DNA of 34,039 nucleotides from a virus: positions 1-34,039 of IMG/VR virus record IMGVR_UViG_3300037563_000264. One strand, 5' to 3'. Of the stretch, positions 10,717 to 34,039 are shown piece after piece. Each line of letters begins with the position of its first letter. The stretch's first letter is position 1. A program made the translations under genes and the position numbers. The notes below the pieces were generated by a model that saw only the letters and a list, made by a program, of their open reading frames with translations, was not told the origin of the DNA and searched no databases.

Positions 10717-11232
10717 CTAGGGTTTGTAGAGTTTTTTAAGTAGCGGAAAATCGTCGGAATCTTCCAGTTGATTAAATAGTTCGACTGCGAAAGGATTATT
10801 TCTGAGTCGCATACGTAATGTAGCAAGAGCCCTATCCCGTCTGTCAATTACACTCTGCGAATTGATATGAAGTGCGCGTTCTATGTCAGCTACTTTTTGT
10901 TCCATAAGATAGTGACGTTCAATCACGTCTTGTTGAGGAGGTGTAAGTCTCTTTATTTCATGACATACAATATCCATAAGGGTGCGTACTATGTGTAATC
11001 TAAAGGCATCTTTATCCTCTACAAAGTAACTATCAGAAGTTGACAGTGCTATATGATCTGCAGCGGGTATCTCTTCCATTGATACCATATACACCCCGCA
11101 TGTACGTACTGTATCTGGTACCTCAACGACAATCTTTGGTATAGAAGTAGGCAGGTCGTCATCGTTATGAACAACAAGTGGATGCTCCTCTATTATAGGT
11201 TCTGATTCTTCGTCAGGTTTTGGTTCCTGCAT
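10717..11232 (-). CDS. Sigma-70 region-4-like transcription factor
   Basis: A protein of about 171 residues. The C-terminal part (about 90-150) matches sigma region 4: LTPPQQDVIERHY, then VADIERALHINSQSVIDRRDRALATLR, a helix-turn-helix of the kind that reads -35 boxes. The first 70 residues are acidic and no region 2 (-10 reading) is visible, so this may be a partial sigma or a sigma-like co-factor. I place the start at ATG 11232 because AGGAGGTGG lies 4 bases before it; an in-frame start at 11250 lacks this spacing. It overlaps the primase gene and precedes the block of unknown genes, as expected for a regulator of late or middle transcription. The specificity is unknown. Confidence 0.6.
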   Translation of the reverse strand: MQEPKPDEESEPIIEEHPLVVHNDDDLPTSIPKIVVEVPDTVRTCGVYMVSMEEIPAADHIALSTSDSYFVEDKDAFRLHIVRTLMDIVCHEIKRLTPPQQDVIERHYLMEQKVADIERALHINSQSVIDRRDRALATLRMRLRNNPFAVELFNQLEDSDDFPLLKKLYKP

Positions 11233-11843
11233 AGACCACCTCCTGTACAATAATCTGCAAAGTCCTTATAAGGGTAAGTAAACATTGTGTGACATGTGAC
11301 GTCCGGTGCAAGTTCTTGTATCAGTTTTGTTACAAGAGGAATTGAACGCATACCTGCACCGTCTGAATCAAGTACAAACGTAAAGTTATTAGTAAACGAA
11401 GCTAACAGGTATACTTGTTCCTTACTAATACGGGTTCCCATAATGGCTACTACGTTACGAACTCCGTTAGAAACAGGTAATAACACGTCAAAAAACCCCT
11501 CTACAATGTACACCATATCTTCCTTTATTATATACTCCTGTGCTTTATCCAGACCAAACAGGTGATGCATCTTAGAAAATGGGAGGTAATGATACTTGTG
11601 TCCTGAGTCACCTAACCTGAGGGCAAGAGATACCAAATTGCCATTCACATCGTTAATAGGCATCAGAGGTTTATGTTCATAAGGACCATACAAGTCGGAA
11701 GAGGGCATTGAGGACCCTAACTGATACGTGTCAAACACAACAGAACTTACACCGCGACTTTGAAAGTAACTACCCACATAAGTTCTGTCTGTTGAGGTCA
11801 CTATCCTCTCGTACTTAACTACTTGCTCGTCAACGTTACACAT
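11193..11843 (-). CDS. DnaG-like primase core (TOPRIM) without zinc domain
   Basis: A primase-type catalytic core that makes RNA primers for replication. Visible pieces are the DnaG-like start of the RNA-polymerase domain (YFQSRGVSSVVFDTYQLG), the core strand LMPINDVNGNLVSLALRLG, the TOPRIM motif VEGFFDVL with its Glu, GTRISKEQ, and the metal-binding DSDGAG. The protein ends soon after KDFADYC. Compared with DnaG (around 600 aa) it lacks both the N-terminal CHC2 zinc domain and the C-terminal helicase-binding domain. The start at 11843 has GGGAG 11 bases upstream; an ATG at 11861 in the same frame has no visible site. It overlaps queD and the sigma-like gene. The helicase and loader are encoded in the divergent block. 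Confidence 0.75.
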   Translation of the reverse strand: MCNVDEQVVKYERIVTSTDRTYVGSYFQSRGVSSVVFDTYQLGSSMPSSDLYGPYEHKPLMPINDVNGNLVSLALRLGDSGHKYHYLPFSKMHHLFGLDKAQEYIIKEDMVYIVEGFFDVLLPVSNGVRNVVAIMGTRISKEQVYLLASFTNNFTFVLDSDGAGMRSIPLVTKLIQELAPDVTCHTMFTYPYKDFADYCTGGGLCRNQNLTKNQNL

Positions 11844-12226
11844 GCGTTTTCTGTCTCCCATAGGTCAACTCGTACTACTCTGGCTCCGAACTTTTTCTTG
11901 AAAACTGCGTCAAGTGTATTAAAAATGTATACACTAAGATTCTCAGCTGTCGGTTGTTCAACAATATCGTTAAGGTATGCATGATCCAACTTATTAGTAA
12001 CAGTCTTTTCTATTGTTGCCTTCATAACCTTAAAGTCTATTCCGAATTCTACTTTCTCCTGCAGTTTCGGAACCAAAACAAACACTTCGAACCGCCATGT
12101 ATGTCCATGGAGGTGGGCACACCGACCTACATAATTGTTAAGTTTATGTGCGGAATCAAACTTCTGGGTTACCCTCAGGGTGTAATTGAACTCCTGCGGT
12201 ACTACTTCCTTTGTCACCTTCTCCAT
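11819..12226 (-). CDS. queD: 6-carboxy-tetrahydropterin synthase QueD
   Basis: Converts 7,8-dihydroneopterin triphosphate to 6-carboxy-5,6,7,8-tetrahydropterin, the second step of preQ0 synthesis. At 135 residues it has the family's usual size. Zinc ligands His27, His40 and His42 (FDSAH, then HLHGH) and the catalytic Cys36 of GRCAHLHGH are present, as are LDHAYLN and PTAENLSVYIF near the substrate site. The ATG at 12226 has AGGAGG 8 bases upstream, lying inside the end of recA; the two genes overlap by 71 bases in different frames. The other pathway genes (folE2, queE, queC) are also in the window, which makes QueD more likely than a biopterin enzyme. Confidence 0.9.
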   Translation of the reverse strand: MEKVTKEVVPQEFNYTLRVTQKFDSAHKLNNYVGRCAHLHGHTWRFEVFVLVPKLQEKVEFGIDFKVMKATIEKTVTNKLDHAYLNDIVEQPTAENLSVYIFNTLDAVFKKKFGARVVRVDLWETENACVTLTSK

Positions 12227-13282: not shown

Positions 13283-13735
13283 CTATATACCTTTACTAAG
13301 TTTTTTAAGATATAATAAAGCATCTGCTTCATTATTGAATACAACGTCTGCTGCTTCTAATACGAAAGCATGTTCGTGGATATTTCCAGGTTCAAGTACT
13401 ACTATTGTATGTTTGCCTTTGTCATGTGCCCAAGCCAACTCCATACAACAACCAATTGATGCCATTGTAGCACCAAGAAGATTCAGGTAAACTATGTCAG
13501 AAGAACTAACCATCCAACGGTCCCGTTCAGAAATAGCATGATTAGTAGTTACGGGTGACTGATCAAGTCCATGACTACGTAACTTCATGTCCGTTCTAAG
13601 CATTTCCTTTCCAGTCATGGGACATAGAACCTCATAACCGAACTTTTTAAGTAGTTTAGTAACTCTTGTATAGTAACTCATTACTGATACGTAACTCTGT
13701 CCGGAAATCGGATGTGCCATATAAATTTTGTGCAT
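13283..13735 (-). CDS. Nucleoside 2-deoxyribosyltransferase-like protein
   Basis: A protein of 150 residues in the fold that transfers 2-deoxyribose between bases or hydrolyses deoxynucleotides. Supporting motifs are MHKIYMAHPISGQ (first strand and loop), ERDRWMVSSSDIVYLNLLGA, and GCCMELAWA with the likely catalytic Glu. The C-terminal LEPGNIHEHAFVLEAAD is usual in phage members. I start it at ATG 13735: TTGGGGGTT lies just upstream and the gene then begins one base after the upstream stop; a longer frame from 13810 would overlap that gene. It could serve nucleotide salvage or supply of deoxynucleotides, with the phosphoribosyltransferase and kinase elsewhere in the window. The exact substrate is not visible. 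Confidence 0.7.
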   Translation of the reverse strand: MHKIYMAHPISGQSYVSVMSYYTRVTKLLKKFGYEVLCPMTGKEMLRTDMKLRSHGLDQSPVTTNHAISERDRWMVSSSDIVYLNLLGATMASIGCCMELAWAHDKGKHTIVVLEPGNIHEHAFVLEAADVVFNNEADALLYLKKLSKGI

Positions 13736-13736
13736 T

Positions 13737-14051
13737 TTAACCCCCAAGATTTGATTTTTTACAATTAACCCATTCGGATAACTTAGTGAACTTTCTTGAG
13801 TGCAGAGCACAAAGTCTACACTCTCTATGTTTCACTTGTTTCTGAAAATGTTTACAAAATCCGGCCCATATACGAATAGCTTCTGGTAGTGATGCAAAGA
13901 TTTCTCGCATATACATCTTCTTTGCTTCATCACTCATATTATGTAACTTACGTAAGTTCTCTTCAGGTATGAGTCCTATTGGAATCTCTATCGGTTCCCC
14001 TGTTTGAGGATCCTTGCCTACAAGATAACCAAGTCTATTTACAGTATCCAT
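13737..14051 (-). CDS. Small Cys/His-rich protein, 104 aa
   Basis: A 104-residue protein whose C-terminal half carries Cys66, Cys78, Cys81, Cys97 and His68, His75 and His84, a pattern that could bind zinc. The N-terminal half is helical (EENLRKLHNMSDEAKKMYMREIF would span about residues 31-52). Its ATG at 14051 lies inside the last codons of the resolvase gene (13-base overlap) with little ribosome binding site, so translation is probably coupled. Function unknown; its place among recombination and replication genes hints at a DNA role. Confidence 0.5.
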   Translation of the reverse strand: MDTVNRLGYLVGKDPQTGEPIEIPIGLIPEENLRKLHNMSDEAKKMYMREIFASLPEAIRIWAGFCKHFQKQVKHRECRLCALHSRKFTKLSEWVNCKKSNLGG

Positions 14052-15483: not shown

Positions 15484-15762
15484 TTAGGTTTTGTACTCTG
15501 TGTTTTCTTTTCCATTGTATGCTCCTTCTAAACTAAGTTTTTCATCAGATTTGTAAAATGCTTTAACCTGTGCTGCTAAGTTAGGAATACCTAAAGAGTC
15601 TCCTGTATCATCCAGAACAACAAACGCATTTTCCAAGGTGTCAGAAATTACTTGGATTGCTTGACCCTCGTGAGCGTAAGAAGTTTGTTCATATTTGTCA
15701 CCCCAGACTTGTATTTCCACAAGACTCGGTTCATTACGTACTACTACACTATAAATCTTCAT
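15484..15762 (-). CDS. Unknown 92-aa protein
   Basis: A 92-residue protein with beta strands at the N-terminus (KIYSVVVRNEPSLVEIQVWGD) and a helical C-terminus. No family is recognised. The ATG at 15762 has no ribosome binding site; instead a TAGTATAAT motif ends five bases before it, so a transcript from that promoter would be leaderless. The gene also overlaps the end of the PHP gene by 14 bases, so coupling is the alternative. Confidence 0.5.
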   Translation of the reverse strand: MKIYSVVVRNEPSLVEIQVWGDKYEQTSYAHEGQAIQVISDTLENAFVVLDDTGDSLGIPNLAAQVKAFYKSDEKLSLEGAYNGKENTEYKT

Positions 15763-16384
15763 GACTTATTATACTATACTTTTTCAATTTGCGGTAGATA
15801 GATACATTCTTAGGATCGTGAGCATCTGTACTTGGATACCATTTACAATAACTCTTTATATTATTATAGAAATCCACGTTGTAGTCTCTTGAGTAACGTT
15901 CATTGAGTTCTACACTTATATTGTTACTTTTAGTGATAGTAAAAAACCTTTGTTGAGTAGCATTATCAAGTTCCTCTTTATTATGGTGAAAAGGATGAGC
16001 AAGATGGTGAACACCTAGTCTTTGGAAGAAAGGAACGTTCTCGTCAAGTATCTGAAGATAATCTTCTGTATTTTTATAGGTGTGCACAGATAGTACTACT
16101 TGGTAACCATCAGTTATAATGCGGTCCAGATTTCGTTTCACTTTATCAGTATCATGGGATATACTCAGTTCTACTGCCTGGGGTATTTCAAAATGTTTTG
16201 CAATTTCTTGCATTCCACTTCGAAATCCGTCCATACTATACTGATTGTCATGAATCAGTATCATGGAGGGTTTAACAACACGGTTCTTAATATTTATATA
16301 ACCTTCGTGCAGATGAGGGAAATAATGAAAGTGAAAGTCCTCCCCTATAAGAAACTTTTTAGTCGTGTCTAACGTAAATGGCAT
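15749..16384 (-). CDS. PHP-family metal-dependent hydrolase
   Basis: A 211-residue protein with the full set of PHP-type metal ligands: DFHFH (Asp16, His18, His20), Glu72 (AVELSISHD), His101 (VLSVHTY), HHLAHPFHH (around 126-134), Glu159 (VELNERY) and STDAHD (Asp187, His189). PHP enzymes include histidinol-phosphatase, 3',5'-nucleotide phosphatases and polymerase proofreading domains; the stand-alone form here is most likely a small-molecule phosphatase or nucleotidase. The ATG at 16384 has AAGGAGG upstream and overlaps the aminotransferase gene by 26 bases. Tight coupling to the aminotransferase and the ArcS-like gene suggests a role in one pathway; the substrate is unknown. Confidence 0.75.
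   Translation of the reverse strand: MPFTLDTTKKFLIGEDFHFHYFPHLHEGYINIKNRVVKPSMILIHDNQYSMDGFRSGMQEIAKHFEIPQAVELSISHDTDKVKRNLDRIITDGYQVVLSVHTYKNTEDYLQILDENVPFFQRLGVHHLAHPFHHNKEELDNATQQRFFTITKSNNISVELNERYSRDYNVDFYNNIKSYCKWYPSTDAHDPKNVSIYRKLKKYSIISHEDL
15768..15776 (-). promoter_or_regulatory. Promoter-like TAGTATAAT motif
   Basis: The minus strand reads TAGTATAAT, followed by AAGTC and then the ATG at 15762. It lies just upstream of the PHP gene's stop region and is identical to the motif at four other block starts. With a normal start distance the mRNA would begin at or next to the ATG. Confidence 0.4.
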
Positions 16385-17522
16385 CTTTGATCCTCCTTGC
16401 TATCTTTTCTAAAATTGCCTTGTCTGTGAAGAGGGGGGGTGTTAACAGTAACCTACCATTTATAACTCTAACGATAACACCTATCTTTAAAAAGAATGAT
16501 GCAGGTTTGTCACAAGGTAAGGAAATAAGAAGACCTCGTCTTTTGTACAACTTCTCAGGAAAGATGCCTGCTAGTTCCATATCAAACACACAACCTTTTG
16601 ATTCTATCTCTGCCTCGAACTTGTTTATATTCCCTACATGACTTAATACTTGTAATGCCGCTGTGCCAGAAACATTATTAAACGCAAAGGTACTACTATA
16701 AAATCCTTTACTAAGAGTTGCAGGCATATCAGTTGCGTTAAAGAATGTACCGTATAAAGGAAGTCCTCCTGCAATACTTTTACCAAAGGCAACAGCAAAT
16801 GGATGAAGGAAACTGTAGTGTCTGTAAGCAAATACCTTTCCCGTTCTCCAAAATCCAGTCTGCACCTCATCTACTATAAGTTTAATCTTGTGTTTTAGCA
16901 GTATTTGGTGTAAGTAGGATACAACAGCGGAATCAAGCGGGATACCTCCTCCGTTAGCTATTGGTACAAGTTCTAAAAGTACTGCTGCTGTATTATTTGT
17001 GTATATTGAGTTATCTAAGAGTATATCAAATTGAGAAAGTACTTCTGTAGCTGTGTTTGCATCCAAAATAGAAGGAAGTACTACTATGTCCTCCCCTTTA
17101 ACATGTTGTTGCAAAATAACATTAGAGCGACCAGAAAGAGTACCATACTTTCCGTGGTATTGATTATTAAAGGTAAATACAAACCGTTTCTGTGAAGCCT
17201 GTCTTGCTAGATTGATTGCATTAGTCACTGCGTCAGTACCACTGGATGCATAGCATATTTGCATCTTATCAGGTTTACATAATGCCACCAATTTCTTTGT
17301 GACTTGATCTCTAAGACTGTTCGGGTACTCGTAGACAGTTGGTAATGTGTCAAATTGACTTTGAATGTCAATTCCTTTATACCACAATGACGTTGAACAC
17401 ACAAAGGATTGCATATCGTAGTACTTCTTTCCTGTAGTGTCTTTCAGAACACCCGGTTCTGTATAGGAAGTAAACTTAGGGTACCCTTTATATTGGAAAA
17501 GATAACTGCTTTGAATTTCCAC
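16359..17522 (-). CDS. Class III PLP-dependent aminotransferase
   Basis: A 387-residue fold-type I enzyme of the ornithine/acetylornithine/glutamate-semialdehyde group. Seen are the phosphate-binding SSGTDA (93-98), the pyridine-stacking region FNNQYHG, the Asp of VDEVQTGFWRTG (Asp218), and the PLP lysine in AFGKSIAGGLP (Lys248). The C-terminal small domain is present but short. The start is GTG at 17522 with GGGAG 9 bases upstream, overlapping the ArcS-like gene by 35 bases. Aminotransferases are uncommon in phages; lying between the ArcS-like and PHP genes, downstream of the polymerase, it may make an amine or amino sugar used in base modification. The amino acceptor cannot be read from the sequence. 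Confidence 0.85.
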   Translation of the reverse strand: MEIQSSYLFQYKGYPKFTSYTEPGVLKDTTGKKYYDMQSFVCSTSLWYKGIDIQSQFDTLPTVYEYPNSLRDQVTKKLVALCKPDKMQICYASSGTDAVTNAINLARQASQKRFVFTFNNQYHGKYGTLSGRSNVILQQHVKGEDIVVLPSILDANTATEVLSQFDILLDNSIYTNNTAAVLLELVPIANGGGIPLDSAVVSYLHQILLKHKIKLIVDEVQTGFWRTGKVFAYRHYSFLHPFAVAFGKSIAGGLPLYGTFFNATDMPATLSKGFYSSTFAFNNVSGTAALQVLSHVGNINKFEAEIESKGCVFDMELAGIFPEKLYKRRGLLISLPCDKPASFFLKIGVIVRVINGRLLLTPPLFTDKAILEKIARRIKDAIYVRHD

Positions 17523-18387
17523 TTTTCTTGACTCCCTTCTTTTTTCCGTACATTATTTCGTCAATCTCTTCACCTGTATGACCCTTGGCTTTAAGTTCCT
17601 GTCTTCTACCGCGTTGTAACTTCATCCGTGCACTTACTATTGCTTTAACCTCGGCAGGTGTAGGGGACTGTCTGCCACTTACAGTCTTACCATCATATAA
17701 ATCTTTAAGGACTTGATTGAGTTCTCCTAAGGTATCATTGTTAGTAAGTTGAAATGTATTCATCTTAACACAGTTATCTTTCATACCCTCAAAAGCTATT
17801 TTACTAGGAACCTCTATTACGTCCCGTCCAAGTAACTTTGTACCTATAAGTAATGCTTCCTTACCTTTACTACTTACACGAAATACTGCTATAATGTTCT
17901 TGTATGGAAACTTTTCTAGAAATCTCCTTATACGTTCACTATTAACCAGCATGAACTCAGCACGTACATCTTTAGGGGTGTTATGATTGTCATCCCATGC
18001 ATAATGAGAAAACGGATAGTACTTCTCAAACTGAGACGGTATAACACCAATGGAACTCAGAGTTACTAAATCGTATGTGTGCTCATAAGGGAATGTGCCC
18101 CCAATAATTGTCTTGTATGTCCTGCTGGTTGAATAAGGTTTCTTTGCAGTACAATTTGTAAATAAAACCGTTTCGTGTTTCATTGTGTGGTGATACATAA
18201 TGTGTTCAAACATCTGTACTGCGTGGGGATGGTGAAAATGTTCCTTACACGGTTTTAACAAAGCAGAATCAACACCAAGATCCCAACTTGCTTTTTTTAT
18301 TATTTCATTTCCTTCTCCCACTAAGGATTCTGTAGCAACTCTAGACGTTTTAATTGAACTCTCATACCCTTTAAGACTGAATGCCAT
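17488..18387 (-). CDS. ArcS-like (DUF5591) preQ0-modifying protein
   Basis: A 299-residue protein matching the core of archaeosine synthase ArcS. The ArcS signature PC-x3-KPY-x2-S-x2-H appears as NC-TAK-KPY-ST-S-RT-Y at about residues 78-91. It is followed by IGVIPSQFEKYYPFSHYAWDD (about 113-133), close to the ArcS GIVP-xx-E-xx-YP-xx-YD segment. ArcS uses the conserved core to add lysine to the nitrile of preQ0 in tRNA. The N-terminal TGT-like and C-terminal PUA parts are absent; the C-terminus is a basic Lys/Arg-rich tail. The terminal His is replaced by Tyr and the Pro by Asn, so activity may be altered. The ATG at 18387 has GGAGG and overlaps the polymerase gene by 17 bases, which argues for a DNA rather than tRNA target. 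Confidence 0.7.
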   Translation of the reverse strand: MAFSLKGYESSIKTSRVATESLVGEGNEIIKKASWDLGVDSALLKPCKEHFHHPHAVQMFEHIMYHHTMKHETVLFTNCTAKKPYSTSRTYKTIIGGTFPYEHTYDLVTLSSIGVIPSQFEKYYPFSHYAWDDNHNTPKDVRAEFMLVNSERIRRFLEKFPYKNIIAVFRVSSKGKEALLIGTKLLGRDVIEVPSKIAFEGMKDNCVKMNTFQLTNNDTLGELNQVLKDLYDGKTVSGRQSPTPAEVKAIVSARMKLQRGRRQELKAKGHTGEEIDEIMYGKKKGVKKSGNSKQLSFPI

Positions 18388-21013
18388 TTTTTATATCCTC
18401 CAATAAGGTTTCTTTACAACCGATACTTGCTAAATATCTTCTTTGTTCTGCTTCCTTCGGTTCTACCCACTTCGGATAAACGTACAAGTCAACATCCACA
18501 GGCACATTTAATGCTTCCTCTGCAGTTTCTTTCATAATAGAATATACTAGAGAAGCAACTTTTGGTACGTCTGCGTTCTTAACTTCAAAAACTAACTCAT
18601 CATGTATTGTTAATACTAACTTAGCATCAAGACCTATTTCCCTGAGTATAAAGTATATCTTAACTGCAGATAGATTGGCGCAATCAGCAGCGGTACCTTG
18701 TATTGGTGAATTCAATGCTTGTCTTTCAGCTGATGCAATTTCGTCCTCAAATTCACTATCTATCTCTGGAAGATGTCTAATGCGACCAAACATCGTTTTA
18801 ACCTGCTTCTCCCTATGTACAATAGATTTCTGTTGAGCCTGAAAAGCTGATATACCTGGATACATTTTTAAATATTCTCTGAGAAAGGTTTCAGCTACAG
18901 ATCTATCTATACCTAATTCTTCAGCTATTGAATTTGCACCTCTACCGTACATTATACCGAAGTTAATACCCTTTGCAATAATACGTTCTTCCTTTGTAAC
19001 CTCTTGTTTATGAAGGACACGTTTTGCTACTTCTGTGTGTATGTCTCGACCTTCATTAAATACTCTAAGAAGATCTGGATCTCTAGTTAATGCAGCCAGT
19101 ACACGTATTTCTATCTGAGAAAAGTCTGCCCCTACTAAACTGCAACCTGCTTCTGCAGTAAATAAGGAACGCATTTTGTTTCCACGCGGAATGTTTTGTA
19201 AGTTTGGTTTGGTGCAGGATAACCTACCTGTTTCTGTTCCGTGTTGTTTGAAGTTCGGATGTATACGATTTGATTCATCTAAACCCTTTTCTAACCCGAG
19301 TACATATGTTTTGTACTCCTTCATCGCTCCGCGGTAGTTTAAAATACTTCTTACTATCTTGTGTTTATGTTTTATTTCTGAAAGTGCTTCATCGTCAACT
19401 TTACGTTTGCCAGTTGGAGTCTTTGATGGATTCTTTGATAAGTTCAAATCATCATAAAGTACAGCACCTAATTGGTCTATAGAGTTAATGTTGAACTCCT
19501 TACCAGATCGTTTGAATATTAAACCTTTACGTTTTTCAATACGTCTTTCTAACTGTACCCTTAAGTAAGATATTGTGTCCCTATCAATCTTTGTACCATT
19601 GTATTCAGTTTCTGCAAGTGCAACTGCAAAAGGCATTATCAAACTGTGGAATAGGTGATTCCTTACTGGGTCCTGTTCTAATTCAGCTGAAAAGATTTTA
19701 TATAACCTGAGTGTAGCATCTGCATCTCCTGCAGCGTACTTATACATAATATGCATTGGGATGTCACCGTAGTCAGTTGTCTTATTAGCTTTTTTGTAAG
19801 TATCAAGTTCTCCCTCATAAGAAGCTAGGTCAGGAAACCTTCGTGCAAGATGTTTTAAGTCGTGAGGCGGTCTTTCCCATATTAAGTGGTGAGCTAACAT
19901 AGTATCAAAGTAGAAAGGTGTCCGTATTTCACCGTCCTTGATTACGCAACGGGACAGGTCTACACCTACTTTCTTTAAAAATTTGTAGTCAAACTTACCA
20001 TTGTGCATCACAAGTTTTTTCTTACTTGGGTCAGTCAGTAGTTCCCTATAACTATTGAGTATGTATGTTTCTGTTGCAGGGTCCCATATCTTCTTATGAT
20101 TTTCCCAAAGAGGAATGTATAATCCTGTCTTCTCTTGCCATGAAAAGGATGTCCCTAACATATGATCGTGTACAAAGTCAGGGTCGTCTCCAATAACGGA
20201 TGTTTCTAAGTCTACTGATAGTTCCTCTACCTCTGAGATGCGGTGAAACACGGAATCCAACTTACTTCTCTCATCGATACAAACGTACTTACCAAAGTCT
20301 ATTGTGCCTGATGCCTTTTGTTTTGCTAATTGTAAGTCACTGATCAGTAGGGGTCTTAGATTTATGTTGCGAAGAATTGCAGCAGGATGCAAAGTAGGAA
20401 TACATGACTTACCCTGGTATGCTATTAAGGAACCTCTACGTTCCATAATCTTTTGTAACTTGAGAACAGCAAAGAGTGCGGTGGCTCCGCAAAGTATTAT
20501 AACTTTAAGTTGTGGCATACTTTTTATCAACCAGTTCAAATAAGGTATACAAGTACTCATTTCTTCCTTTGATGGTTGTCTATTGGATGGAGGTCTACAC
20601 ATGCATACATTAGCAATACAAACCTGCTCCCTAGTAAGACCTACTTCCTTAAGAGCATCAATAAGTAATCTACCTGAGGAACCAACAAAAGGTTTACCGC
20701 AAGCATCTTCCTCTGCTCCAGGCGCTTCACCAACTAAAAGGATATCCGCATTTTTATCACCGTCAGGAAGTACATAATTTCTTTTTGATTTGCAAAGAGA
20801 ACAGAGGGTACAGGAAAAGGGGTCATCAATAACTCTTGATTCTTGGGCATTGGGTCCTGACCTAGTAAGTTTCTTTTCCTTAGCCTGAGAGTCATATTCT
20901 TTCTGAGCTTCTTCAACTTGTTTAATGCGCTCAAGAACATCAGGAAGAATTTCACCATTGACTGTGTCAAATAGATTTAATTTAACTTCCGGACGTGTTG
21001 GTCGTTTGGCCAT
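18371..21013 (-). CDS. DNA polymerase I family with N-terminal uracil-DNA-glycosylase-like domain
   Basis: The replicative polymerase, about 880 residues. Domain order is as follows. A family 4/5-type UDG-like domain (about 65-220) shows CxxCxxC at 68-74, GEAPGAEEDACGKPFVG, NVCMCRPPSNRQP and TLHPAAILRN. A 3'-5' exonuclease (about 250-440) shows SVDLETS with Asp268/Glu270, HNGKFDYKF and YAAGDADATLRLY. A palm-fingers domain (about 470-860) shows motif A GADFSQIEIRVLA (Asp630), motif B KGINFGIMYG (Lys681, Phe685) and motif C IHDELVFEV (Asp805). Phe rather than Tyr in motif B is the E. coli-type residue. UDG-PolA fusions are known in SPO1-type phages. I start at ATG 21013 with GGGAGAG 8 bases upstream; a frame-extended ATG at 21073 lies deep in the upstream gene. 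Confidence 0.93.
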   Translation of the reverse strand: MAKRPTRPEVKLNLFDTVNGEILPDVLERIKQVEEAQKEYDSQAKEKKLTRSGPNAQESRVIDDPFSCTLCSLCKSKRNYVLPDGDKNADILLVGEAPGAEEDACGKPFVGSSGRLLIDALKEVGLTREQVCIANVCMCRPPSNRQPSKEEMSTCIPYLNWLIKSMPQLKVIILCGATALFAVLKLQKIMERRGSLIAYQGKSCIPTLHPAAILRNINLRPLLISDLQLAKQKASGTIDFGKYVCIDERSKLDSVFHRISEVEELSVDLETSVIGDDPDFVHDHMLGTSFSWQEKTGLYIPLWENHKKIWDPATETYILNSYRELLTDPSKKKLVMHNGKFDYKFLKKVGVDLSRCVIKDGEIRTPFYFDTMLAHHLIWERPPHDLKHLARRFPDLASYEGELDTYKKANKTTDYGDIPMHIMYKYAAGDADATLRLYKIFSAELEQDPVRNHLFHSLIMPFAVALAETEYNGTKIDRDTISYLRVQLERRIEKRKGLIFKRSGKEFNINSIDQLGAVLYDDLNLSKNPSKTPTGKRKVDDEALSEIKHKHKIVRSILNYRGAMKEYKTYVLGLEKGLDESNRIHPNFKQHGTETGRLSCTKPNLQNIPRGNKMRSLFTAEAGCSLVGADFSQIEIRVLAALTRDPDLLRVFNEGRDIHTEVAKRVLHKQEVTKEERIIAKGINFGIMYGRGANSIAEELGIDRSVAETFLREYLKMYPGISAFQAQQKSIVHREKQVKTMFGRIRHLPEIDSEFEDEIASAERQALNSPIQGTAADCANLSAVKIYFILREIGLDAKLVLTIHDELVFEVKNADVPKVASLVYSIMKETAEEALNVPVDVDLYVYPKWVEPKEAEQRRYLASIGCKETLLEDIKNGIQS

Positions 21014-21479
21014 GCAGCTCACTCTCCCAAGGAAATACGATATAGGCTGTAGTCTCAATTGTGCACGCGGCAAAGGTATTTTGAGGTACAGGTTGTTTCG
21101 CTACAAGAAATATCCAGTTAACAGTCGGTTGATCACAACCTATGGATGCTTCTGTGTAGTTGTCAAATGTAGTTCCTGTATCATAAATATCATCCACCAC
21201 AATAACCTTTTTGTACCTGCCTTTAAATGTTTTTAGTAATGCAACAAACTCCATAGCGTTGTTAACACTATAAATCGGTAGTTCCATGTTTCTTGTAATA
21301 TAGTGTGCAACAGGGAGGGCATCATGTGCCAGAGCTACAACAGCAATTTTAGCTTCTTCTGCTCCGTCCGGAAGGTGCTCAACCCACAAATAATCTATCA
21401 AAAGATCTTCTAACTGGGTAACAAAAGTAGTATCTAGTTTAAGTTGTATTCCTTCTAAGTACGGTTTTGGTTCTTTCAT
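20982..21479 (-). CDS. Phosphoribosyltransferase
   Basis: A 165-residue type I phosphoribosyltransferase. The PRPP-binding loop VIVVDDIYDTGTT (about 93-105) has both acidic residues, and an upstream strand IAVVALAHDALPVAHYI gives the usual fold core. Small members act on hypoxanthine, guanine, xanthine or adenine; the hood residues that set specificity are not readable by eye. The ATG at 21479 has GAGGT 5 bases upstream. It sits between folE2 and the polymerase gene (31-base overlap), so it may recycle the guanine released when a deazaguanine is exchanged into DNA. That role is inference. Confidence 0.75.
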   Translation of the reverse strand: MKEPKPYLEGIQLKLDTTFVTQLEDLLIDYLWVEHLPDGAEEAKIAVVALAHDALPVAHYITRNMELPIYSVNNAMEFVALLKTFKGRYKKVIVVDDIYDTGTTFDNYTEASIGCDQPTVNWIFLVAKQPVPQNTFAACTIETTAYIVFPWESELHGQTTNTSGS

Positions 21480-21481
21480 GG

Positions 21482-22327
21482 TTACCTCAAGTACTTTCCG
21501 GCATTAACTATCGCCACTGCATTATGGTAGTGTATACTCTCCTCGTGGTCAACAACTACTACATAATCAATTATTTCTGGTTTACTATCAAGCATCATCG
21601 TTATGTTTCTTGCAGCATCTTCACTAAACTGTGGATGTTCCCATGTCAATTTTGCTATTGCTTGTTCATCCGGCCTCTTAATAAGAGTGTACGGAATTGT
21701 TACCACTGACTTTTCTATATCAAGTATCAGTTGTTGTAAATCCACATTCTCAGGAGAATCAAATTCCACAGTCACATTTGCAAAACTACGTTGCATGTGT
21801 GGCGCTCCCCTTCCAGTACCTGCTTCTTCTAAAGCACAACCAAGTGCCTGTGAACAAGGACAAGTGGAAATGTATTGTACTATAGGTGTGACATAAAGTT
21901 TACCACTTGAATGCGCTTCAAATATAACTTCATAAGGAGACTTACTATAAAGTTTAGAAACAGGTGATTGCTTTTCTATGTACACAGTAGTACGTACTTT
22001 TAAAAAAGCTGTTTCGCTTTCATTCCTTTTTTGTAATTCTTTCACAGCATCAATAAACGCAGAAGGTTTCAAGGTATACTGAGTTAAATGCTGATCAAAC
22101 ACCTGCGCGAATCTAGACATGTTAACACCTTTCACATGTGCAGGCAGGTCAACATATCCAGAAACCTTTGCTATTGTATGTTGTTCATTAACCTCGGTAT
22201 GCTCCTTACTGACATACAGGGTTATTGGTAAGGATACACCACTAATACCAACCTTGTTGATTTTTACACCGCGTGTGTCCGGTGCGTTCTGTGTGTCTGG
22301 TAAGTGCAAAACTATTTCCTCACTCAT
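21482..22327 (-). CDS. folE2: GTP cyclohydrolase IB (FolE2)
   Basis: Converts GTP to 7,8-dihydroneopterin triphosphate, the first step towards preQ0 and folate. At 281 residues it fits the FolE2 family (250-320). Family marks are the opening DTQNAPDTRGVKINKVGI, the STCPCSQAL cysteine motif (Cys156/Cys158), GTGRGAPHMQRS with its His, and the C-terminal ESIHYHNAVAIV. FolE2 can use metals other than zinc, unlike the common FolE. The ATG at 22327 has AGGAGG 6 bases upstream. It is followed two bases after its stop by the phosphoribosyltransferase gene. With queD, queE and queC it completes the preQ0 pathway. Confidence 0.92.
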   Translation of the reverse strand: MSEEIVLHLPDTQNAPDTRGVKINKVGISGVSLPITLYVSKEHTEVNEQHTIAKVSGYVDLPAHVKGVNMSRFAQVFDQHLTQYTLKPSAFIDAVKELQKRNESETAFLKVRTTVYIEKQSPVSKLYSKSPYEVIFEAHSSGKLYVTPIVQYISTCPCSQALGCALEEAGTGRGAPHMQRSFANVTVEFDSPENVDLQQLILDIEKSVVTIPYTLIKRPDEQAIAKLTWEHPQFSEDAARNITMMLDSKPEIIDYVVVVDHEESIHYHNAVAIVNAGKYLR

Positions 22328-22336
22328 TACAACCTC

Positions 22337-22882
22337 CTATGATAGTTCTGTTAGTATTTTATTTACTATGGTAGTTGCTTTCTTTTTATCAGTAGCATAC
22401 TTCAATACCTTTGTTGGAACAAAAACAAACATATCTTGAAAACTCTGATTCACTTGTTTCTGCTTTGTTGCATCCTGCTCATAAGTAGCATCTATCTTTT
22501 TGACTTTACTTCTTTTTATGATCCTCTCTGCAATAATGTCATGGTGGTCTGCATAAAGAAACACTGTAAGGTCAACTAATTGTTTATACCTCTGTAGATG
22601 TCTTTCTATGTCCAAAACTGACCAGGTGTGGTTACTAAAGATATGGTCATAAATTATGGTTGTAAATATACTTCTATCTACAAGTACATATGAGTACAAC
22701 GTACCCAACTCTTTAGCTATTTCTAACTTCTTGAATTCAAAAGTTAAACTAGCTTCAAAGGTTGGGCATCGTTTATGATCGAATTTAGGACAAATAGCAG
22801 TTGAGTTAGGAAGTTTTGCAAGTAGACCCTGTATAGTAGTACTCTTTCCTACTCCGTCCGCTCCATCGATCACTATGATCAT
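22337..22882 (-). CDS. Thymidylate-kinase-like nucleotide kinase
   Basis: A 181-residue P-loop kinase. DGADGVGKSTT (about 6-16) is the ATP-binding loop, LVDRSIF around residues 67-73 is the DRS/DRx motif of thymidylate kinases, and a lid region rich in Arg and Lys follows (RIIKRSKVKK). It would phosphorylate a deoxynucleoside monophosphate, probably dTMP. The ATG overlaps the stop of the previous gene (ATGA), so translation is coupled. Next downstream is folE2. Other deoxynucleotide kinases share these motifs, so the base preference is uncertain. Confidence 0.75.
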   Translation of the reverse strand: MIIVIDGADGVGKSTTIQGLLAKLPNSTAICPKFDHKRCPTFEASLTFEFKKLEIAKELGTLYSYVLVDRSIFTTIIYDHIFSNHTWSVLDIERHLQRYKQLVDLTVFLYADHHDIIAERIIKRSKVKKIDATYEQDATKQKQVNQSFQDMFVFVPTKVLKYATDKKKATTIVNKILTELS

Positions 22883-23593: not shown

Positions 23594-24208
23594 TTACTTT
23601 GGTAACACTTTTAGTGTTGCGGAATAGATACTATTAAGTTCTTCCTTAATAGCATAAGCTATCATTGACATTATTGCAGCTTCATGAGTCTTTTCAACTT
23701 CGCAATTAGATGGAAAACATAGATGTAGATCGTTCAGATTCCCTGCAAACTTTGGAGCTTTTTTTCCTGCGTACAAGTTCAACCCTATATGAATTAAACT
23801 TGAATGAGCTGTTTGGGTAGCTATTGATACAGAATACTTTTTTCTATTATCCCCTGCTCCCGAAAGGATATCATCCCCATCAACATAAAGGTTGATCGAT
23901 TTGTTCTCTTTAAAGCTGCTAAGTTTATCAGCTATCGTGTGAATAAGCACCCTCTGTAAGGCTACAGCACCTACAATGTTGGTGAACGGGAGTTCTAATA
24001 CAATGTTAAGTGCATCGGAACTCCAAATTGGGTCATTCAGTACTACATCTTCAGAATCTATCATTTCACCTATCTTTACATCCATCGGTCCTCTAAAAAT
24101 TACAATGTTAGCCACTCCCCTTGATAACTTATAAGGAAAGGTAGAGGTTAACTGAGTCCCATTGTACTTCAACTTCTTGCTGTACTCATACACATTAAAA
24201 TTTATCAT
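23594..24208 (-). CDS. DUF366-family-like protein
   Basis: A 204-residue protein that follows the pattern of DUF366, a family known mainly from archaea. Matching pieces, in order, are KYNGTQLTSTFPY, VIFRGPMDV, GEMIDSEDV, VALQRVLIHTI, YVDGDDIL, and YSVSIATQTAHSSLIHIGLN. No biochemical role is established for this family to my knowledge. A TAGTATAAT promoter-like site lies about 35 bases upstream and GGGAG precedes the ATG at 24208. It heads the run leading through folE2 to polA and the ArcS-like gene, and the divergent HgdB-like gene upstream and queE lie just before it. A part in deazaguanine chemistry is possible from position only. Confidence 0.6.
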   Translation of the reverse strand: MINFNVYEYSKKLKYNGTQLTSTFPYKLSRGVANIVIFRGPMDVKIGEMIDSEDVVLNDPIWSSDALNIVLELPFTNIVGAVALQRVLIHTIADKLSSFKENKSINLYVDGDDILSGAGDNRKKYSVSIATQTAHSSLIHIGLNLYAGKKAPKFAGNLNDLHLCFPSNCEVEKTHEAAIMSMIAYAIKEELNSIYSATLKVLPK

Positions 24209-24240: not shown

Positions 24241-24249
24241 ATTATACTA
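24241..24249 (-). promoter_or_regulatory. Promoter-like TAGTATAAT motif
   Basis: The minus strand reads TAGTATAAT; its TAG is also the stop codon of the upstream gene (24247-24249). It sits about 35 bases before the ATG at 24208, giving a normal leader with GGGAG. It would start the transcript carrying the DUF366-like, folE2 and polA genes. Confidence 0.5.
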
Positions 24250-25125
24250 GAGACCTAATGTAACGTTTGTGAACTGATCAGGTAATATGTATTGTTCAAG
24301 ATCCAACATGTTTGTACTGTAGTATTCCGCCTCATCTTGTGTTAAATATATACCACGAGGATTCATAATCAGGTGGGACACATTGATACCGTGTATATTT
24401 CCTTGGTCCTGCGCATACATAGTGATTATCCTTCTTATCTCAATCAGAGTAGCTAAAGGGGATTGGAATAATGGACTTGATGAATAAAACTCTGCTAAGT
24501 CAGTTACAGGTTGTGAGAAGTATGAATAAGGTAAGAAGGCTATTGTCTTAATACCTACTGACTCAAGGTAGGTAAAGAATTCTGGATCAACAGGGTCCCC
24601 GAGAAATATGGCAAATTTAGAGTACGTTTGCCTATCAGAAGGAATATTTTGAATGAATTTTTCAAACTGACCAAAATTGCCTCCATTTAAATCAGAGAGA
24701 AGCGACATAGCGTTAAACAAACCTGCACTAGAAAGTAGTGAGTTATTCATGTGCAAGTTAAGTGTTGCCCTTGCGGAGTTTAAGGAGGTTTGATAGTTCA
24801 TTAACAAATTACCTTCACTGATGTACTGACCCAATGCATTGAATAAATTTGTGACCTCTCTTTTTTGGGGACTATAACTAGGGTCAAATATGAACGTGTG
24901 TGGATAGTGACAATAAGGAAGAATTCCTCTTCCGTATCTAGAGTTAACAAGTAGGTAATCTTCCTTGTTCATCTTTAACTCAGAAAGTGTCTTAAGAAGA
25001 GCTGGACGCAACTGAGAAAGGTTTGGTGTACTAGTAACTTTATTAAGAAGGTCAGTTACCTCATAGCGTTTACTAACAATGTCTAAAGGTTGAATACCAA
25101 TAGTGTATAACTTAGGTTGTTCCAA
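24247..25125 (-). CDS. Protein resembling 2-hydroxyacyl-CoA dehydratase subunits, cysteines missing
   Basis: A 292-residue protein. The layout recalls the HgdB/BcrC family: an N-terminal strand region (LLVNSRYGRGILPYC, then HTFIFDPSYSPQKREVTN), a helical block with repeated Asn and Leu, and IFLGDPVDPEFFTYLESVGI, like the 'Gsp-hxp-hhxhhExxG' step of that family. The C-terminal end also follows (HGINVSHLIMNPRG). Only one cysteine is present, in LPYCHYP, so the iron-sulphur cluster of true dehydratases cannot form. The start is TTG at 25125 with GGAG 7 bases upstream. It follows queE by one base, so the two are likely co-translated. The resemblance is weak and by eye; it may simply be a new family. 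Confidence 0.45.
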   Translation of the reverse strand: MEQPKLYTIGIQPLDIVSKRYEVTDLLNKVTSTPNLSQLRPALLKTLSELKMNKEDYLLVNSRYGRGILPYCHYPHTFIFDPSYSPQKREVTNLFNALGQYISEGNLLMNYQTSLNSARATLNLHMNNSLLSSAGLFNAMSLLSDLNGGNFGQFEKFIQNIPSDRQTYSKFAIFLGDPVDPEFFTYLESVGIKTIAFLPYSYFSQPVTDLAEFYSSSPLFQSPLATLIEIRRIITMYAQDQGNIHGINVSHLIMNPRGIYLTQDEAEYYSTNMLDLEQYILPDQFTNVTLGL

Positions 25126-25126
25126 G

Positions 25127-25798
25127 TTAAACTCCTCTCTTAATACCCCACACTCTTAAGTGGAGTCTGTCTGTATAGTTAAAACCGTGATTCAATGCAA
25201 AATTCCATGCTTCTTTTTCGTTTGTAAACGTATCTAGGTCTGTAAGAGGCATTACCCATATTCTATCCCGTACTGTTACCAAACTTATATCGTATGAAAA
25301 AAGTAGTGTGGATAAATAGGAACTATAAACATTTGCTTCTTCTTCTGTTTTAGCGGTGTAAGGAAATTTGATAATATAATCTGTCATGTTATCAACCTGT
25401 GTAAGTAGTACTGGTGCTGTAGAACGACCGTCTAATTGGTCCTCAACTCTTTTGGGTGATATGTTCCACAGATCAATAAAGTCAAAGAACGCTTCATTGT
25501 GTACTAAGTGTGTTCCTGATGTTTCTAATTCTATCCAAAGAGGTTCATACTTCACAATCAGGTCTTGAATTTCCTGTTGGTAAAGTAGGGGTTCTCCACC
25601 TGTGATCATCCAAAAAGGATACTTACGAAGGAGGTCTGCTACTTCACTTTCATCAATAAGTTCCTTTGGTGACCAAGAATATTTAGTGTCACACCATTTA
25701 CATTTCAAATTACATTCTGGGACTCGGAGTATCAGTCTCGGTTGTCCTGCCGTTTTTCCTTCACCTTGAATTGAATAAAATACTTCCACGAATTTCAT
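25127..25798 (-). CDS. queE: 7-carboxy-7-deazaguanine synthase QueE
   Basis: A radical-SAM enzyme that contracts 6-carboxy-tetrahydropterin to 7-carboxy-7-deazaguanine, the third step of preQ0 synthesis. Its 223 residues match the QueE length. Visible are the QueE opening EVFYSIQGEGKTAGQPRLILR, the cluster motif CNLKCKWC (Cys29, Cys33, Cys36), and the SAM-binding TGGEPLLY. I choose ATG 25798: GAGGTG lies just before it, while the in-frame GTG at 25804 is part of that site. QueC, the next enzyme, is encoded at the far right of the window. Confidence 0.93.
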   Translation of the reverse strand: MKFVEVFYSIQGEGKTAGQPRLILRVPECNLKCKWCDTKYSWSPKELIDESEVADLLRKYPFWMITGGEPLLYQQEIQDLIVKYEPLWIELETSGTHLVHNEAFFDFIDLWNISPKRVEDQLDGRSTAPVLLTQVDNMTDYIIKFPYTAKTEEEANVYSSYLSTLLFSYDISLVTVRDRIWVMPLTDLDTFTNEKEAWNFALNHGFNYTDRLHLRVWGIKRGV

Positions 25799-25807
25799 AG
25801 TCACCTC

Positions 25808-33683: not shown

Positions 33684-33950
33684 ATGGAAATATTGAAAAA
33701 GTGTGCGTTTTGCGATCACCAGTTTGATCTTGAACAGGGAGGCAGACAGGTACAAACAGCTGTACACAAAACAGACAAGGTGTCATTCGACAAGTTAATG
33801 GTCTGGCAGTGTCAGGATTGTAAGACAGCAGGAAAGACAGTTACTAAGTTCGGTGCAGAGATATTTGTATCTGGAGGAACTATGGCACCTCTAGAAGACG
33901 ATTATGTAGAACACGAAGCCAAAATGAAAACTAAGGAGGTAGTAAAATGA
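33684..33950 (+). CDS. Small zinc-ribbon protein, 88 aa
   Basis: An 88-residue protein with two CxxC knuckles (KCAFC near the start, QCQDC about 35 residues later), a zinc ribbon with a 30-residue beta insert, and an acidic tail. GGGAG lies 6 bases before the ATG at 33684. Its TGA overlaps the queC start (ATGA), and the queC ribosome binding site lies in its last codons. Zinc-ribbon proteins of this size are found next to various phage genes; function unknown. Confidence 0.55.
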   Translation: MEILKKCAFCDHQFDLEQGGRQVQTAVHKTDKVSFDKLMVWQCQDCKTAGKTVTKFGAEIFVSGGTMAPLEDDYVEHEAKMKTKEVVK

Positions 33951-34039
33951 AAGTTGTAACACTTATTTCTGGAGGAGCGGATTCCAGCACACTTCTCTAC
34001 TATTTAATGTACCAACCCGAAGTAACAGAAATTGCACCG
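33947..34039 (+). CDS. queC: 7-cyano-7-deazaguanine synthase QueC, partial
   Basis: Only the first 31 codons are inside the window. They read MKVVTLISGGADSSTLLYYL, the PP-loop SGGxDS motif of QueC, which turns 7-carboxy-7-deazaguanine into preQ0 with ATP and ammonia. AAGGAGGT lies 7 bases before the ATG, and the start overlaps the stop of the zinc-ribbon gene. The motif alone also fits other PP-loop ATPases, but folE2, queD and queE in the same window make QueC the best call. A GAT-QueC fusion is excluded at the N-terminus. Confidence 0.85.
   Translation, partial: MKVVTLISGGADSSTLLYYLMYQPEVTEIAP

Follow-up and report, generated by a model that had tools for sequence, protein, structure and literature searches.

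What would a phage do with an ArcS-like gene that overlaps genes for a class III aminotransferase and a PHP-type hydrolase? The question is raised by IMG/VR virus record IMGVR_UViG_3300037563_000264, a 34 kb fragment from an uncultivated phage, whose whole stretch of 34,039 nucleotides is here called the window. On its minus strand polA, the ArcS-like gene, the aminotransferase gene and the PHP-motif gene form a series in which neighbours share 17, 35 and 26 bases; these figures are exact on the open reading frame (ORF) coordinates and agree with an earlier note made from the sequence alone. These overlaps prove little because 20 of the 32 adjacent gene pairs in the window overlap, and we rejected overlap as proof of a functional unit. 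The note had treated the three genes after polA (the triad) as a joint 7-deazaguanine unit, and their membership in such a pathway is well supported, by an order kept in divergent phages and by a parallel assembly in cyanophages. We tentatively read the cassette as serving the decoration steps of a 7-deazaguanine hypermodification pathway in the phage, one that would place an amine-substituted archaeosine-type base in DNA.

The same gene order is found in other phages. In two IMG/VR contigs, 129 and 133 kb long and nearly identical to each other (the relatives), the triad is contiguous and in the same order (identity to the window 54/44/36%), while most of its neighbours have changed; a fourth contig, 27.8 kb long, nearly duplicates the window (the near-copy). 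When IMG/VR was scanned by pattern with ArcS, aminotransferase and PHP queries, no contigs beyond these three were returned, and the same method applied to bacterial and archaeal genomes returned no triad members. The set is rare overall, and the genes keep together within it: where the earlier note had allowed that they might seldom co-occur in related phages, each of the 4 IMG/VR contigs with any of the genes has all three.

The first member, the 299-aa ArcS-like protein (17488-18387, minus strand), is identified through Pfam, NCBIfam, PDB and a motif. Residues 65-168 match DUF5591 (Pfam E 2.6e-12, 47.3 bits against a cut-off of 26; 2e-12 for the protein of the relatives). The match to NCBIfam archaeosine synthase alpha is partial (E 9e-12), and the NCBIfam ArcS equivalog thresholds are not reached (44 bits against 600, 41 against 440). 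Archaeal AF0587 (PDB 2q07) is matched by sequence (4.5e-8) and is also the sole fold match below 0.001. A C-x3-[KR]PY-x2-[ST] motif, conserved throughout the phage members, is kept (NCTAKKPYSTS), in common with the relative (G002), AF0587, Vibrio phage nt-1 and cyanophage Ssp-JY38, the last two of which are described below. The phage protein thus shares with archaeal ArcS the DUF5591 domain, the C-x3-KPY-type motif and preQ0 as the expected substrate, but it differs in its length of about 300 aa, in falling far under the equivalog cut-off, and in its domains, as Pfam and NCBIfam detected DUF5591 only and neither a TGT-like nor a PUA domain in its 299 aa. Archaeal ArcS moreover pairs with RaSEA, of which none was seen here, whereas the phage protein pairs with the aminotransferase and the PHP-motif protein. 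T. kodakarensis ArcS joins lysine to preQ0, and it takes the preQ0 nucleoside 5'-phosphate with no need of tRNA (PMC11298593); a DUF5591 enzyme therefore need not bind tRNA. We propose, from these family-level resemblances, that the phage protein is a candidate enzyme for coupling an amine to the preQ0 nitrile.

A search of 50,697 phage records for DUF5591 proteins related to that of the window led to two further groups, one of which repeats the association. In the cultured Synechococcus cyanophages Ssp-JY38 and Yong-L2-223, a class III aminotransferase is paired with a DUF5591 that is fused to a HAD-phosphatase-like domain; the tblastn link from the window DUF5591 is weak (E 4e-3), with Pfam DUF5591 at 7.3e-10. 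The host listed for Yong-L2-223 is Synechococcus sp. PCC 7002. In Ssp-JY38 (PP438428; L042:4481-6938) the aminotransferase gene (Pfam 2.1e-33) overlaps the DUF5591 gene, and RpiB follows. The DUF5591 gene is annotated 'acid phosphatase'; its N-terminus has DLDGTL and matches a polynucleotide-kinase PHROG. Upstream of the aminotransferase are FolE, QueD, QueC, QueE, a queuine-tRNA-ribosyltransferase/DpdA-like gene, a clamp gene and polA. The cyanophages are therefore like the window in that a class III aminotransferase adjoins DUF5591, and Ssp-JY38 also in its preQ0 genes, its TGT/DpdA-like gene and its polA; they differ in the fused HAD-type phosphatase-like domain, in the order (aminotransferase, then ArcS) and in the added RpiB isomerase. 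Because the window and Ssp-JY38 aminotransferases show remote likeness (35% over 91 aa) and the two phosphatase types are unrelated, the association of aminotransferase, phosphatase and DUF5591 looks to have been assembled more than once, and two different assemblies argue for a common chemical logic.

The second triad gene (16359-17522, minus strand) encodes a class III pyridoxal-phosphate (PLP) aminotransferase of 387 aa (Aminotran_3 1.8e-35), whose GTG start is backed by alignment with the relative (MEIQSSY / MEITSSY). Alignments indicate that it retains the PLP lysine, K248, and the DE pair at 218-219, which includes D218. Where acetylornithine aminotransferase has HGR, the window protein has HGK, and the C-terminal Arg before PPL has moved two positions in the aminotransferases of both phages. 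It fits none of the substrate-specific NCBIfam models (its best score is 127.6 bits, where the acetylornithine model requires 616), and its nearest relatives are omega-aminotransferases of amino acids (acetylornithine, gamma-aminobutyrate). That kinship fits a scheme in which coupling comes first: the ArcS-like enzyme would attach an amino acid, lysine or another, to the preQ0 in DNA; the PLP enzyme would then work on the amine that this residue leaves free; and the PHP protein would trim or cleave the product, perhaps replacing the archaeal radical-SAM RaSEA. In thymidine hypermodification phages, PLP enzymes are known to act on amino acids attached to DNA bases. As for the donor, T. kodakarensis ArcS uses lysine (PMC11298593). 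We think such an order unlikely, as it leaves unexplained the two unrelated phosphatase types and the presence of a sugar-phosphate isomerase with the aminotransferase and DUF5591 in Ssp-JY38.

The third member, a PHP-motif protein of 211 aa (15749-16384, minus strand), is probably a metal-dependent phosphatase or hydrolase, judging by ordered ligand motifs shared with the relative. Eight His/Glu/Asp positions are conserved in YcdX, a PHP phosphatase; their counterparts occur here in order (DxHxH, H, E, H, HP, ExN, DxH), and both phage versions retain all eight. This pattern, which was composed after the sequence had been seen and has generous spacers, arose in 0 of 300,000 shuffles; among 214 ORFs it picked out only the PHP genes of the window, the near-copy and the relative, and it is also present in YcdX. 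An hhalign comparison with YcdX alone gave no useful alignment, and no relatives of the protein were found in the 50,697 phage records. PHP domains are known in bacterial DNA polymerases, and polA is nearby, so the protein might instead be a proofreading or repair nuclease of the polymerase, with the aminotransferase as an unrelated auxiliary metabolic gene. This is highly improbable, given that the window polA already has a 3'-5' exonuclease domain and that the PHP gene of the relatives comes after the aminotransferase, not after polA.

The substrate of the proposed coupling would come from preQ0 genes, which the earlier note had correctly placed nearby. Complete in the window, all on the minus strand, are a FolE2-type GTP cyclohydrolase I for the first preQ0 step (21482-22327; Pfam GCHY-1 1e-65), QueD, 6-carboxytetrahydropterin synthase (11819-12226; PTPS 5.5e-29, NCBIfam QueD 1.8e-23), and QueE, the radical-SAM 7-carboxy-7-deazaguanine synthase (25127-25804; NCBIfam QueE 6.6e-20, Radical_SAM 4.7e-7). 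On the plus strand, the 5' end of queC (33947-34039; first 31 codons, MKVVTLISGGADSSTLLYYL...) matches QueC profile positions 1-22 (E 5.4e-4); the gene is truncated by the right edge of the window, and the fragment was missed at first because it is shorter than the ORF length cut-off. At 16-17 bits over 31 codons the match scores low, but the position, the PP-loop motif and a good upstream ribosome-binding site all fit. With FolE2, QueD and QueE complete and the start of queC present, the preQ0 route of the window is probably complete.

The earlier note had taken the linkage to polA as a sign that DNA is the target. The adjacency is not kept in the relatives, where about 4 kb separates the triad from the polA gene downstream, and we rejected it as evidence; the target itself found other support. 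Besides FolE2, QueD, QueE and QueC, the 129-133 kb contigs encode a DpdA-family DNA guanine transglycosylase whose gene stops 6 bases before polA, so that DpdA, not the triad, adjoins polA. The DNA guanine transglycosylases, annotated or candidate, that it resembles include the one annotated in Flavobacterium phage immuto (E 1e-13) and those from Campylobacter phage CP220 and Cellulophaga phage phiST, all three being phages with 7-deazaguanine clusters. The immuto cluster resembles the window in its phosphoribosyltransferase and thymidylate-kinase-like genes, which in immuto phages lie near DpdA, and in its polA; its tailoring genes are QueF and a formyltransferase-like gene, in place of ArcS, aminotransferase and PHP. 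DNA is a likely target of the modification; in the relatives the base probably enters it by way of DpdA.

Aminotransferase followed by phosphatase is a familiar amine route from a phosphorylated carbonyl, as in HisC with a PHP- or HAD-type histidinol phosphatase and in SerC with SerB. The scheme that we tentatively favour, decoration of preQ0 with an amine made in this way, would run as follows. FolE2, QueD, QueE and QueC would make preQ0, which would enter DNA by transglycosylation (DpdA family) or through the nucleotide pool. The aminotransferase would convert a phosphorylated aldehyde or ketone, for example a triose or sugar phosphate, to an amino-phosphate; the PHP-motif enzyme would strip the phosphate and free the amine; and the ArcS-like enzyme would couple this amine to the nitrile of preQ0. 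The outcome would be an N-substituted amidine, in other words a substituted archaeosine. The earlier note's suggestion that the aminotransferase and the hydrolase make or process an amine donor is thus plausible. The sequences themselves show the family of each gene, the order that the phages share, the set of preQ0 genes and the return of the association with a different kind of phosphatase; from these we infer what each enzyme does, the order of the steps, which amine is used and that the base ends up in DNA.

Several observations weigh against this scheme. The PHP label is borne out by the metal-ligand motifs and not by the Pfam PHP profile, which has no match in the protein at E <= 10; its structure model is weak (pLDDT, the predicted local distance difference test score, 65), with a barrel-like (TIM) shape of low confidence that matched other TIM barrels and no PHP structure among the 50 matches listed. 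The HAD reading in Ssp-JY38 rests on motif and PHROG matches. DpdA was not found in the 34 kb window, itself a fragment, with either Pfam TGT or a home-made hidden Markov model, whose best hit (E 0.04) was not accepted; Pfam TGT likewise found nothing in the near-copy, the relative or nt-1. The miss in the window, together with the activity of the ArcS family on tRNA, would suit a product that goes into tRNA or remains a small molecule. We consider that outcome very improbable in view of the DpdA-family gene before polA in the relatives and of the phage ArcS-like protein, in which PUA and TGT domains were not detected.

The second group of DUF5591 carriers, Vibrio phages nt-1 and CZ01, bears on the scheme in the same adverse sense. 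With a short ArcS, nt-1 has no class III aminotransferase and no credible PHP match, and its DNA holds dPreQ0, dADG and a little dG+ (PMC6884629); the aminotransferase and phosphatase are therefore not required by every DUF5591 enzyme. Its ArcS/DpdA2 system resembles the relatives in that a short DUF5591 lies next to preQ0 genes and to a gene of class II amidotransferase type, and differs from the window in the two enzymes just named. The amidotransferase-like gene of nt-1, with an MCG start and no Pfam match, stands directly after QueC (L020:13546-14154); the relatives have a class II glutamine amidotransferase near QueC (G002, Pfam; MCG start, L015:5571-6233). These genes may supply ammonia for archaeosine formation. 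Both they and the bases measured in nt-1 would fit an ArcS-like enzyme that simply makes dG+ or dADG from preQ0, the aminotransferase and PHP genes serving nucleotide or amino-acid metabolism and being merely co-transcribed. We regard this as rather improbable, since the ArcS-aminotransferase-PHP order is kept in divergent phages while most neighbours have changed, and since a class III aminotransferase again adjoins DUF5591 in the cyanophages. Under the amine-decoration scheme the donor would be set by gene partners: possibly ammonia in nt-1, because dG+ was measured there (PMC6884629) and an amidotransferase-like gene follows QueC, and here the product of transamination and dephosphorylation.

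Of the remaining genes of interest, those from polA to DUF366 in the account below are on the minus strand. DNA polymerase I (polA, 18371-21073; Pfam DNA_pol_A 4.3e-112, UDG 2.3e-29, DNA_pol_A_exo1 1e-19) combines UDG, 3'-5' exonuclease and polymerase domains, and its real start is probably about 60 bases within the called ORF. The uracil-DNA-glycosylase-superfamily domain is at the N-terminus, and the PolA of the relative starts with a similar segment. Genes for a purine phosphoribosyltransferase-like protein (20982-21479; Pfam 8.6e-5, below the cut-off, phrog_8995 1.8e-6, NCBIfam XPRT 1.2e-5), a thymidylate-kinase-like (deoxy)nucleoside monophosphate kinase (22337-22882; phrog_761 1.1e-19) and a nucleoside 2-deoxyribosyltransferase-like protein (13283-13810; Nuc_deoxyrib_tr 6.3e-8) could form a route for the modified base into the deoxynucleoside triphosphate pool, the last being a possible point of entry. 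A closer affinity of the kinase to DpdA-linked kinases was rejected, as the difference is not significant. In a run with the preQ0 and nucleotide genes sits a gene of the mainly archaeal DUF366 family (23594-24208; Pfam DUF366 6.8e-32, PDB 2ddz 8.7e-13), which was not found in the 129-133 kb relatives or nt-1. An association of DUF366 with preQ0 genes elsewhere was rejected: the one phage match, in Microcystis phage MaAM05, has unrelated annotated genes as neighbours. In the near-copy contig (L002:587-2260), transposase-like ORFs resembling IS200/IS605 TnpA and TnpB stand directly before DUF366, a place taken by other genes in the window. Between QueE and DUF366 is a 292-aa protein (24247-25125) with no Pfam, NCBIfam or PHROG match. 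A sigma-70 region 4-like protein (10717-11250, weak match) is possibly a phage transcription factor.

The earlier note knew of no DNA modification that uses this combination, and we likewise found no description of ArcS, aminotransferase and phosphatase together in phages in the literature examined, a 2023 paper on further phage 7-deazaguanines lying outside the comparison. The cyanophages Ssp-JY38 and Yong-L2-223 are represented by annotated records, with no description found in that literature. The cassette, read as a variant of 7-deazaguanine DNA modification, has a fair chance of yielding an undescribed base. Phage 7-deazaguanines known so far carry small groups (cyano, amido, aminomethyl, amidine), whereas a larger side chain built from an amine is predicted from this cassette, the product of enzymes with no earlier link to DNA modification. 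It is possible, though on balance doubtful, that N-substituted archaeosines form a new class of DNA base, made by a recurrent amine route (class III transamination starting from a sugar or triose phosphate, then removal of the phosphate by a PHP or HAD enzyme), and that stand-alone DUF5591 proteins are general amine:nitrile couplers. The prediction is open to test in cultured cyanophages, Ssp-JY38 and Yong-L2-223, because they hold the parallel module. If true, it would recast DUF5591 as a family whose amine donor is dictated by its gene partners.

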